Below, piece after piece: positions 45,885 through 50,097 of a stretch of 64,000 nt of DNA (the first letter of the stretch is position 1; each line of letters begins with the position of its first letter). The DNA is from Spirochaetaceae bacterium. GTDB taxonomy: Bacteria > Spirochaetota > Spirochaetia > Treponematales > Treponemataceae. Position numbers and translations under genes: made by a program. The notes beneath the pieces are model-generated. The model made no database searches, was not told the origin of the DNA, and saw nothing but the letters and a program-made list of their open reading frames with translations. The stretch covers positions 1 through 64,000 of the forward strand of contig JAGBFB010000041.1 in NCBI GenBank assembly GCA_017936665.1, in the 5' to 3' direction.

Positions 45885-45949
45885 TACGTTGAATAAAAAA
45901 AGATATTATGTTAGTCTTGTTGAGTTGCTATTTAACGTGTCTTAATATA

Positions 45950-46040
45950 GCAATTCTCTGGAGAGTCTCCATCACCTTTGGAGCGCCGAAGGGTTAAGGC
46001 TATTAAAGCCGATATCTCAGGCAAAGTGGACAGGGCTAAA
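45950..46040 (+). promoter_or_regulatory. Glycine riboswitch aptamer
   Basis: CTCTGGAGAG (45956-45965), GCGCCGAAGG and, after a variable hairpin, TCTCAGGCAAAGTGGACAG match the conserved core of the glycine riboswitch. One complete aptamer is present. A second start, CTCTTTGGAGAG (46057-46068), looks like a remnant of a tandem partner. A promoter TTGAGT (45920-45925), 17 bp, TAATAT (45943-45948) would start transcription at the aptamer's first bases. The gene controlled is the AGCS transporter. Confidence 0.88.
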
Positions 46041-46064
46041 ATTAAGTCTTTTTCAACTCTTTGG

Positions 46065-46104
46065 AGAGCGATAATCTTAATTGGATTTCGCTCTTATTTT
46101 TTTT
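46065..46104 (+). terminator. Riboswitch expression platform terminator
   Basis: AGAGCGA (46065-46071) pairs with TCGCTCT (46088-46094), followed by TA and a T tract to 46104. The left arm overlaps CTCTTTGGAGAG, which can form an alternative hairpin. Glycine binding can therefore switch between read-through and termination. The direction (on or off) cannot be read from the sequence. Confidence 0.7.
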
Positions 46105-46119
46105 AAGAGGTCAAATGTA

Positions 46120-47541
46120 ATGACTTTTGATGAAATCTTGGTAAAGATTGACGATGTTGTATGGGGAATTCCAACTATCGTTTTAATCTTGGTAACTGGA
46201 TTGATTTTAACAATCCGAACTCGTGGTATTCAGTTTACAAAACTTGGTCGTGCTTTTAAGCAAATTTTTAAGAAGAATGAAGGACAAGGTGAACTTTCTG
46301 GTTTTTCAGCTCTTTGTACTGCTCTTTCTGCTACAATTGGAACTGGAAATATTGTTGGGGTTGCAACTGCTATTGTAGCTGGTGGTCCTGGTGCTTTGTT
46401 TTGGATGTGGTTTGCTGCTATTTTGGGAGTTGCAACAAAATATGCAGAATGTATGCTTGCAATCAAATATCGTGAAGTAAAAGAAGACGGAACTGTACTT
46501 GGTGGTCCATTCTACACAATCGAAAAGGGAATGGGTAAAAAATGGAAGTGGCTTGCTGTTTTATTTGCAATCTTTGGTGTTGCAGCTGGACTTCTTGGTA
46601 TTGGTACGATGACTCAGATTAACGGAATTACTTCTGCTGTTAACATGGCAATTAAATCTGATGTTGCATTCACTTTATTTGGAAATGATTATACCTGGGC
46701 AACTGTAATTGGTGGTGCAATCGTAACAATTTGTGCTGCATTAGTAATCATTGGTGGATTAAAACGAATTTCTAAAGTTGCAGAAAAAATTGTTCCTGCT
46801 ATGGCTGTTATTTATATTTTCTTAGGAATTTCTGTTCTAATAATGAATGCAACAAAAATCCCTGCTGCCTTTGCATTAATTTTCAAATCAGCATTCGGAT
46901 TTCAAGCAATTGCTGGTGGTGTAACAGGTTTTGTTCTAAAACAAGTTATGGATTCTATGCAAAAAGGAATTGCTCGTGGTATTTTCTCTAATGAAGCAGG
47001 TCTTGGTTCTGCTCCAATTGCCGCAGCTCCTGTTCAAACAAAAGAACCTGTAGAACAAGGTCTTGTAAATATGACAGGAACTGTAATTGACACATTAATC
47101 GTTTGTACAATGACAGGTTTAGCAATTGTTATTGCTTTCTGTAATCCTGAATTTGTTCCACTTGCAGAAGGGTTACAAGGTGTTCAATTAACATCAAAAG
47201 CACTTTCTTTCGATTTAGGTGGAGATGGAGTTTCTGTTCAATTTTTGCTTATGCTTTGTTTAGCATTCTTTGCTTTTACAACAATTTTAGGTTGGGATTA
47301 TTACTCAGAAAAATGTCTTGAATATTTAACAAATGGTAAAATGAAGTTTGTTATGGTTTACAGATTTTTCTATATCGTAATGATTGCAATTGGACCATAT
47401 TTTACAGTAAATGCAGTTTTCACTATTGCAGATATTACAAATGGTCTTATGGCTATTCCAAACTGTATTTCTTTAATTGTGTTAAGTGGTGTAGTTGCTA
47501 AAGAAACAAAATCATACTTTGATAGACATCCAACATTTTAA
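46120..47541 (+). CDS. Sodium:alanine/glycine symporter (AGCS family)
   Basis: 473 residues from the ATG at 46120 (AAGAGG upstream), with about 11 membrane helices. It is a sodium-coupled amino-acid importer of the AGCS (AgcS/DagA) family. Family motifs include FSALCTALSATIGTGNIVGV and SNEAGLGSAPIAAA. It sits directly behind a glycine riboswitch, so glycine is the likely main substrate. The next gene converges on a shared terminator. Confidence 0.92.
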   Translation: MTFDEILVKIDDVVWGIPTIVLILVTGLILTIRTRGIQFTKLGRAFKQIFKKNEGQGELSGFSALCTALSATIGTGNIVGVATAIVAGGPGALFWMWFAAILGVATKYAECMLAIKYREVKEDGTVLGGPFYTIEKGMGKKWKWLAVLFAIFGVAAGLLGIGTMTQINGITSAVNMAIKSDVAFTLFGNDYTWATVIGGAIVTICAALVIIGGLKRISKVAEKIVPAMAVIYIFLGISVLIMNATKIPAAFALIFKSAFGFQAIAGGVTGFVLKQVMDSMQKGIARGIFSNEAGLGSAPIAAAPVQTKEPVEQGLVNMTGTVIDTLIVCTMTGLAIVIAFCNPEFVPLAEGLQGVQLTSKALSFDLGGDGVSVQFLLMLCLAFFAFTTILGWDYYSEKCLEYLTNGKMKFVMVYRFFYIVMIAIGPYFTVNAVFTIADITNGLMAIPNCISLIVLSGVVAKETKSYFDRHPTF

Positions 47542-48648: not shown

Positions 48649-49704
48649 CTAATTCTTCATAGCTTTTTTTTCTAGTTTTAATAATCGTCTTTTTTCAGCC
48701 CTTTCTAACCGAGCTTTTTTTCGTTCTTCCCGTAAAATAAACCAAGGTCTATTTTTTTGCTCTGTTGCATTCTCCTTTAATAACAACTTTGCTGCTATAA
48801 AGGTTGCAAGTCCACATAAAAAAGTTGTAAAAATTATTCCCCACCAACCATTATTTTCAAAAGGAAGAGGAACGTTCATTCCAAAAAAACTTACGATAAA
48901 AGTTGGAACCATCATAATTAAAGAGATGATAGTAAGTTTTTTCATTACGATATTCAAGTTATTAGAAATAACAGAAGCAAATGTATCCACCATTCCAGTT
49001 AGAATGTCACTGTAAGTATCAGCCATTTCAATAGCTTGTCTATTATCAATTACAACATCTTCAAGCCAATCTTTATCATCTTCATCAAATGAAAGATATC
49101 TTGTTTTTAAAAGTTTTTCTAACAAAAGTTGATTGCTTTTTAATGAAGTTGTAAAAAACACAAGGGATTTTTCTAAGTTCAATAATTGAATAAGTTCATT
49201 ATTTTTTACAGAAAGCTGCAATTCATTTTGAATTGTTGTTGAACGACGATTTATTTCTTTTAGATAACGCAAGAAGATGGTATCTGCACGACTCAAAATT
49301 CTAGTTACTAATTCAGGAAAGTCAGAAAGTGTTACGCCTTTTAAGCGATTTGACGCAATATCTTTTAGAACTTCACAATCTGTCCAACAAATTGTTATAA
49401 TTGTATTTTCATAAAGAATGATACCTAGAGGAATTGTAAAATAGCTAATGTCTGCGTCTGGTACAAAAACAGGCAAACGAAGAATTATTAATATGTATTC
49501 GTCTTCTTTTTCGATACGAGAAAGTTCGTCTTGGTCAAGAATATCTAAAATATGTTCTTGGTCGATATGAAATTCTTCTTCTAAAATTCTCATATCTTCT
49601 CGATTTACATTTCGAGCATCAACCCACCTAGGAAGATTTTTTTCTAGTTCTTCTTGTTCTTTGTGAATAAATTTTCCATTTTCTTGTTGCCAAAATGTTA
49701 TCAT
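48649..49704 (-). CDS. corA: CorA magnesium/cobalt transporter
   Basis: 351 residues. A long cytoplasmic funnel domain of helices is followed by two membrane helices at the C-terminus. The signature GMN lies in SFFGMNVPLPF. It forms a pentameric, self-gated Mg2+ channel (also Co2+). A basic tail (KKARLERAEKRRLLKLEKK) ends it. AAGGAAGG lies 9 nt upstream of the ATG. Its leader contains a terminator-like hairpin, a 22-codon reading frame with a perfect ribosome site, and competing pairings that could hide its start codon. Confidence 0.93.
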   Translation of the reverse strand: MITFWQQENGKFIHKEQEELEKNLPRWVDARNVNREDMRILEEEFHIDQEHILDILDQDELSRIEKEDEYILIILRLPVFVPDADISYFTIPLGIILYENTIITICWTDCEVLKDIASNRLKGVTLSDFPELVTRILSRADTIFLRYLKEINRRSTTIQNELQLSVKNNELIQLLNLEKSLVFFTTSLKSNQLLLEKLLKTRYLSFDEDDKDWLEDVVIDNRQAIEMADTYSDILTGMVDTFASVISNNLNIVMKKLTIISLIMMVPTFIVSFFGMNVPLPFENNGWWGIIFTTFLCGLATFIAAKLLLKENATEQKNRPWFILREERKKARLERAEKRRLLKLEKKAMKN

Positions 49705-49823
49705 GAGGCATTCCTTCCTTATTGATTAAGAATGTAAGAAACTTTCAATACTCAATTTGAAAGTAACCTTTCTGCCTCGTAAACTCATTTTTAGAAAATG
49801 TTAAGAAATGAATACAGAGGCAG
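49705..49823 (-). promoter_or_regulatory. corA leader with three competing pairing segments
   Basis: On the reverse strand, segment A CTGCCTC (49823-49817) is complementary to segment B GAGGCAG (49778-49772). B is also complementary to segment C TGCCTC (49710-49705), which directly precedes the corA ATG. The A-B hairpin is extended by GTA/TAC and TCATTT/AAATGA. A lies inside the upstream reading frame and the frame's stop lies between A and B. A ribosome on the frame would disrupt A-B and let B cover the corA start. A separate 8-bp hairpin (ACTTTCAA/TTGAAAGT, 49741-49764) lies between B and the corA ribosome site. Confidence 0.6.
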
Positions 49824-49869
49824 TGCTTATGTTTGAGAAATTACGCTTACTTCCCGGGTCCGAACCCAT
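49801..49869 (-). CDS. 22-codon upstream reading frame in the corA leader
   Basis: ATG at 49869, stop TAA at 49801-49803. The peptide begins MGSDPGSKRNFSNI and ends STASVFIS. A perfect AGGAGG (49875-49880) lies 5 nt upstream. The start codon is followed by GGGTTCGGACCC, a small hairpin. A leader peptide (corL) that controls corA is known in Salmonella; this one has no visible similarity beyond position and the early acidic-proline pair DP. It is probably a regulatory leader peptide rather than a functional protein. It is too short for standard gene calling. Confidence 0.6.
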   Translation of the reverse strand: MGSDPGSKRNFSNISTASVFIS

Positions 49870-49880
49870 AACTACCTCCT

Positions 49881-49924
49881 AAAAAAATCGCGAGAAAAAT
49901 TTCAACTTTTGGAGCGATTTTTTT
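49881..49924 (-). terminator. Terminator-like hairpin in the corA leader
   Basis: AAAAAAATCGC (49881-49891) and GCGATTTTTTT (49914-49924) form a perfect 11-bp stem with a 22-nt loop. On the reverse strand the T tract runs directly into the AGGAGG of the upstream frame. It is probably a conditional attenuator, or the end of a ~75-nt RNA. Its A/T-flanked symmetry means it could work on either strand. Confidence 0.65.
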
Positions 49925-49962
49925 ACGTTGTTTCGTAATAAAAAACTCCAAAAAACAAGTAT

Positions 49963-50012
49963 ATTTTACCTTTTATTTGAAAAAAAATCAACGGAACAAA
50001 TAGAAGGTAAAA
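49963..50012 (-). promoter_or_regulatory. corA: corA promoter overlapped by a palindrome
   Basis: On the reverse strand TTGATT (complement of 49986-49991), a 17-bp spacer and TAAAAT (complement of 49963-49968) form a promoter, starting near 49956. A 16-bp inverted repeat with one wobble (49964-49979 with 49997-50012, arms around TTTTACCTT and AAGGTAAAA) overlaps the -10 box. It may be an operator. Confidence 0.6.
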
Positions 50013-50097
50013 GAAAAAAGTTTACAAAAACACAACAGATACAAAATTTTGAAGAGTGTCTTGACAATTTTCATTAACAAGTGCATTCTGAATATGT

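Follow-up and report, generated by a model that had tools for sequence, protein, structure and literature searches.

A putative Mg2+-responsive leader peptide with an invariant AGU codon upstream of corA in a Spirochaetaceae bacterium and of Mg2+ importer genes in several phyla

Introduction

The leader peptides for which we found a description of Mg2+-dependent ribosome destabilisation in the literature are enterobacterial. In Salmonella, the mgtQ-mgtB leader forms the stems 1:2, 2:3 and 3:4 and has Asp2 and Glu5 in its uORF, and the exchanges Asp2-to-Gly and Glu5-to-Ala increase uORF translation and decrease mgtB (PMC8092293). The EPDP stretch of MgtL, encoded upstream of mgtA in E. coli and Salmonella, causes ribosome drop-off at low Mg2+, with Rho-dependent termination as the reported output (PMC11282234). 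CorL, encoded upstream of corA in Salmonella and E. coli, has few acidic and proline residues, is Rho-dependent and is expressed inversely to corA (PMC11552253). The M-box (ykoK, RF00380) is an RNA aptamer and involves no peptide. In Mycobacterium tuberculosis, the pe20 M-box with the conserved uORF rv1805A combines a Mg2+ leader, small uORFs and Shine-Dalgarno/anti-Shine-Dalgarno alternatives; the aptamer is described as doing the sensing, with the uORF as the product under regulation, which sets this system apart from the one considered here (PMC12810186).

We analysed the leader of corA in a Spirochaetaceae bacterium (contig JAGBFB010000041.1; the window is the whole analysed stretch of 64,000 nucleotides). 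A sequence-only reading of this DNA had drawn a parallel to Salmonella corL-corA; the common feature, a uORF before corA, stands, and mgtQ-mgtB proved the closer system as far as the mechanism is concerned. Like mgtQ-mgtB, the leaders studied here have a short uORF, Asp2 (a feature of the relatives, with Gly2 in the window), another acidic codon soon after, and predicted alternative stems, of which 3:4 would hide the ribosome-binding site of the Mg2+ transporter gene, giving a translational output. In contrast to them, mgtQ has 8 codons, precedes the gene of a P-type ATPase transporter, occurs in another phylum and has neither DPGS nor an invariant AGU, and a sequence relation is undetectable. 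With MgtL they share the N-terminal acidic and proline residues (EPDP there, DxDP here) and the Mg2+ importer gene downstream, whereas MgtL has no AGU and an unrelated sequence; CorL differs in its RNA structure. The window itself has a short uORF before a Mg2+ importer gene and N-terminal acidic and proline residues (DPG, and DxDPG in the relatives). Neither the Rfam models nor the peptide motifs (EPDP versus DxDPGS) gave any sequence relation to the mgtL or corL leaders. The MDxDPGS leaders, having no recognisable sequence in common with MgtL and mgtQ, most likely form a separate family. A search of the open-access literature, outside which most subscription papers and all preprints lie, returned no description of an MDxDPGS leader-peptide family.

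Results

The corA gene encodes a CorA-type Mg2+ channel of 351 aa (48649-49704, minus strand; Pfam PF01544, E 5.9e-54). The genome search with corA as the query gave a single match, the corA of the window, and no MgtE-family gene was found in the window's genome. A PilZ-like gene, with a Pfam score just under the cut-off, is divergently oriented on the plus strand from 50098. Elsewhere in the window, a glycine riboswitch (RF00504, 48.1 bits, 45948-46043, plus strand) lies directly 5' of a frame for a membrane transporter of 486 aa (46081-47541), which resembles a sodium:alanine/glycine symporter.

The leader probably starts from the promoter TTGATT-17-TAAAAT (49963-49991, minus strand), and a similar TTGNNN-17-TANNNT is located 5' of the uORF in many relatives (mean z 1.19 versus shuffles, 52 leaders). 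A transcription start downstream of the central pairing segment is unsupported, the likely promoter being upstream of the frame. The sequence-only reading had placed the promoter in a palindrome and had a terminator-like stem follow it. The imperfect palindrome does overlap the promoter-like sequence (49953-50023; arms 49953-49979 and 49997-50023, 78%) but is absent from the relatives. The 11-bp stem is likewise present in an A/T-rich stem-loop (49881-49924, minus strand; arms AAAAAAATCGC at 49924-49914 and GCGATTTTTTT at 49891-49881), with a T run abutting AGGAGG; it is not a normal intrinsic terminator, since the T run lies within the stem and the stem has 3 G-C pairs only, and the terminator scan did not report it. 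Neither the stem nor the palindrome recurs in the relatives, and both were rejected as core parts of the switch.

No Rfam family reached the gathering score in the window leader. A match to the TD-1 RNA (RF03155, 49997-49877, minus strand), ending at the Shine-Dalgarno of the uORF, scored 30.4 bits where 64.5 are needed, with many broken pairs, and was rejected; it probably reflects the A/T-rich composition. The covariance model of the M-box (RF00380) detected no M-box in the window or in the spirochaete leaders scanned.

The uORF has 22 codons (49801-49869, minus strand; MGSDPGSKRNFSNISTASVFIS) and is preceded by the Shine-Dalgarno AGGAGG (49880-49875), the equivalent of segment 1, both as described in the earlier reading. 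That reading overlooked the conserved N-terminus of the uORF and its invariant AGU at codon 7. To describe both, we gathered 60 corA orthologues from three spirochaete families by protein search alone and then read their upstream regions. A short frame with an MD(S/T)DPGS-like start was detected upstream of 43 of the 60, including MDSDPGS, MDTDPGS, MDTEPGS, MDTYPGS and MDPDPDS; the window uORF begins MGSDPGS. Other spirochaete families gave the starts MPDPDSSS, MDPDGSC and MPDPDSHS, with PDPDS in families f3 and f4. A weak version (MDSGSC, lacking a good Shine-Dalgarno) precedes corA in 3/60, and no uORF of the MDxDPGS type was found upstream of the remaining 14/60 orthologues. A GGAGG or GGGGG Shine-Dalgarno stands before 51 of the 53 frames analysed. 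In the window's 2.58-Mb genome the loosened motif has one match, at corA.

Conservation is confined to the first ~7 residues; the C-terminus is not conserved and the peptides are 11 to 55 aa long. Nucleotide variation at codons 2, 4, 5 and 6 falls mainly on third positions, and Ser3 is encoded by AGC or TCN among the relatives, which together point to selection on the peptide. Acidic codons at position 2 and at positions 4-5, as in mgtQ, are found in most relatives. Codon 2, for Asp in nearly every other member, encodes Gly in the window uORF, leaving Asp4 as the single acidic residue before codon 7, so that its sensor may be weaker than those of its relatives. In the large genus g4 (L028, L101, L103, L106-L112 and others) the uORF of the corA leader is degenerate (MDSGSC, MDGGSSYP) or missing, a possible loss of the switch.

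The serine at position 7 is encoded by a single codon. Among loci that had been found without the motif, Ser7 is AGT in 31/31, with about 3 expected, and AGT, accounting for 7.8% of the serine codons in the adjacent corA genes, is the rarest serine codon there. An AGT lies within codons 6-8 in 42 of the 43 frames, and the shifted variants keep it after the acidic/proline/glycine stretch. The simplest reading is that AGU (49849-49851, minus strand, in the window) occupies the A site as a ribosome carrying a chain of 5-6 residues pauses or drops off.

The three pairing segments of the earlier reading, A, B and C, were confirmed in the sequence and are called here segments 2, 3 and 4. Segment 2 (CTGCCTC, 49817-49823, minus strand) is inside the uORF; segment 3 (GAGGCAG, 49772-49778) follows it; and segment 4 (TGCCTC, 49705-49710) adjoins the corA ATG at 49704. 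Segments 2 and 3 form a perfect 7-bp inverted repeat within a longer hairpin. The pairing of segment 3 with segment 4 extends to 19 nt (49773-49791 with 49692-49710), is 74% complementary and runs across the corA start codon. Folding predicted the 2:3 helix (0.995) with a ribosome near codon 5 and the 3:4 helix (0.95) with a ribosome at the stop codon; the two helices are mutually exclusive, with 3:4 over the downstream start as in mgtQ. The window leader folds better than its shuffles (z -3.3). Its own switch score (z 1.5, p 0.09) is modest and only suggestive, and the computed case becomes convincing across the relatives (41 leaders, 24 genera).

For these 41 leaders, which have room between uORF and gene, we computed the energy needed to open the ribosome-binding site of the gene for two positions of the ribosome, the uORF stop and codon 5, using preset footprints and shuffled middles as the control. 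The start site was harder to open with the terminating ribosome than with the early-held one in 36/41 (mean z 1.39), and 18 of the 41 were individually below p 0.05. By genus, 22/24 were positive (sign p 3.6e-5), the genera still being related by descent; genus g9 scored in the wrong direction. When natural middles were exchanged among leaders instead, 31/41 were positive (mean z 0.68), which is weaker than with the shuffle control; this swap control is conservative because Shine-Dalgarno-like complementarity is common to many leaders. The helix sequences vary among lineages while the wiring recurs (2:3 or 3:4 is clear in L088, L082 and L031), and complementarity of the three segments is retained in most genera despite the different sequences. 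The claim that finished translation of the frame exposes segment 3 to cover the corA start is thus supported by folding, both in the window and in the relatives.

The companion claim, that the 2:3 helix forms on stalling or on ribosome loss alike, holds in part: the folding favours it for an early-held ribosome. Most relatives are closed as empty leaders too (no ribosome minus early-held, mean z +1.36, 36/41), which makes a stall and the plain absence of a ribosome not equivalent. This closure often comes from pairing of the uORF Shine-Dalgarno with segment 2, e.g. in L013, L031 and L104. In the window, the two states look alike (opening energy 7.8-7.9 kcal/mol with no ribosome and 8.0 kcal/mol with an early-held one), and for segment 1 of the empty leader the predicted partner is segment 4 (0.61), not segment 2.

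Where uORF and gene do not overlap, they are 60-190 nt apart. In about ten leaders (L010, L011, L012, L016, L017, L026, L089-L093), among them those of genus g5 and of Treponema lecithinolyticum, the uORF overlaps the corA start by 29-62 nt. Intrinsic terminators between uORF and gene are not in excess (1/41 leaders, expected 0.9) and none was reported in the window leader; intrinsic termination was rejected as the output.

The motif is not limited to spirochaetes. When 84,980 species were scanned for exact matches to GGAGG-N(2-11)-ATG-GAY-NNN-GAY-CCN-GGN-AGT, 31 loci in several phyla came up, and 27 of them precede a corA, mgtE or Nramp-type gene. It stands before corA in Treponemataceae and Clostridia, and before mgtE in Sphaerochaetaceae, Kiritimatiellae, Halothermothrix, Desulforadius and a Chloroflexi genome. 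In Ktedonobacter racemifer (L085) it precedes an Nramp-family gene by ~300 nt; a subgroup related to Nramp transports Mg2+ (PMC4072509), and the position of the motif suggests a putative Mg2+-transporting Nramp here. The other four loci lie within longer frames (L056, L069) or have no importer in reach (L057, L071). Among 299 genomes from the phylum of Desulforadius, a looser motif gave three matches, all three before corA or mgtE. A survey of 196 Clostridia genomes with the motif freed of its Shine-Dalgarno returned one match, already known, and no new member, indicating that the strict motif is rare in Clostridia. Five loci (L068, L074, L078, L082 and L088) have an M-box of 132-154 bits on the same strand, ~50-120 nt 5' of the MDxDPGS uORF, an apparent stacking of riboswitch and leader peptide within one leader, and both are associated with the same importer families.

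Discussion

Our results favour, with fair though not high confidence, the corA leader as a translational attenuator whose sensor is the ribosome translating a short leader peptide in a Mg2+-responsive manner. At adequate Mg2+, the ribosome would reach the uORF stop and mask segment 2, segment 3 would pair with segment 4 and corA would stay untranslated. At low Mg2+, the ribosome would be destabilised or held after an acidic/proline chain of 5-6 residues, with AGU in its A site; this early failure near codons 5-7 would leave segment 2 free to form the 2:3 helix, which would open the corA start. The relatives with an overlapping uORF may follow the same logic with no helix, since completing ribosomes would cross the corA start and aborted ones would not. 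The structural half of the switch is supported by computation, and the Mg2+ half we infer from the kind of genes downstream, from the M-boxes in tandem with the uORF and from MgtL and MgtQ as precedents. The earlier proposal of a Mg2+- or translation-sensing leader keeps its uORF-controlled pairing; RNA alone as the sensor gives way to the conserved acidic/proline peptide start together with the AGU codon, which most likely do the sensing.

The same peptide sensor could act on Rho-dependent termination, uORF translation opening a Rho loading site and abortion closing it. The mgtL-mgtA leader works in this way (PMC11282234), corL-corA is reported to do likewise (PMC11552253), and the uORF-to-gene distances of the non-overlapping leaders leave room for it. 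In most genera, however, the predicted structures affect the ribosome-binding site of the gene downstream, and the leaders in which the uORF overlaps corA have no untranslated stretch between the two; we consider this output unlikely, although it is the best placed of the alternatives. A Rho-dependent component may contribute to the translational mechanism.

Improbable, in our view, is codon-supply attenuation, in which AGU and the conserved Pro5 would report charged tRNA-Ser or tRNA-Pro, and so the amino-acid/tRNA state and not Mg2+. The invariance and rarity of AGU would fit, and in Salmonella a response to charged tRNA-Pro is known for mgtP (PMC8092293). Yet there is one serine codon and no run, the acidic residues are conserved as well, and the genes downstream belong to unrelated Mg2+ importer families, some of them behind an M-box.

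Still less probable is a function of the small frame's product itself, as a micro-protein that might e.g. partner the importer. Its conserved N-terminus is encoded next to an importer gene, and peptides of the MgtR and MgtU type are known from the mgtCBRU operon (PMC8092293), but only ~7 residues are conserved in products of such variable length, the remainder is unrelated, and the same start stands before three unrelated importer families. Chance, a spurious ORF with fortuitous complementarity in an ordinary intergenic region, could account for the complementarity of the window taken alone (p about 0.09) and is very improbable overall, being contradicted by the conservation: the motif, its codon, the place of the promoter and the energetics of the switch all recur in relatives, and the loosened motif occurs singly in the genome, at corA.

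Returning to the translational attenuator, the wider proposal is one to which we give even chances: that M-D-x-D-P-G-(AGU) marks a cross-phylum family of Mg2+-sensing leaders controlling CorA, MgtE and Nramp-type importers in spirochaetes, Firmicutes, Chloroflexi and Kiritimatiellae, either by themselves or behind an M-box, in which the ribosome would be destabilised at one obligatory rare codon, and helices particular to each lineage, or a uORF overlapping the importer gene, would provide the readout.

If this is true, the translating ribosome as a Mg2+ sensor would be a widespread strategy, placed before non-homologous importers and sometimes combined with an M-box. The family would supply a defined minimal sequence for arrest or drop-off, whose codon-level requirement can be tested directly, and it would serve as a marker by which to find Mg2+ importers and allow one to ask why AGU should be essential.
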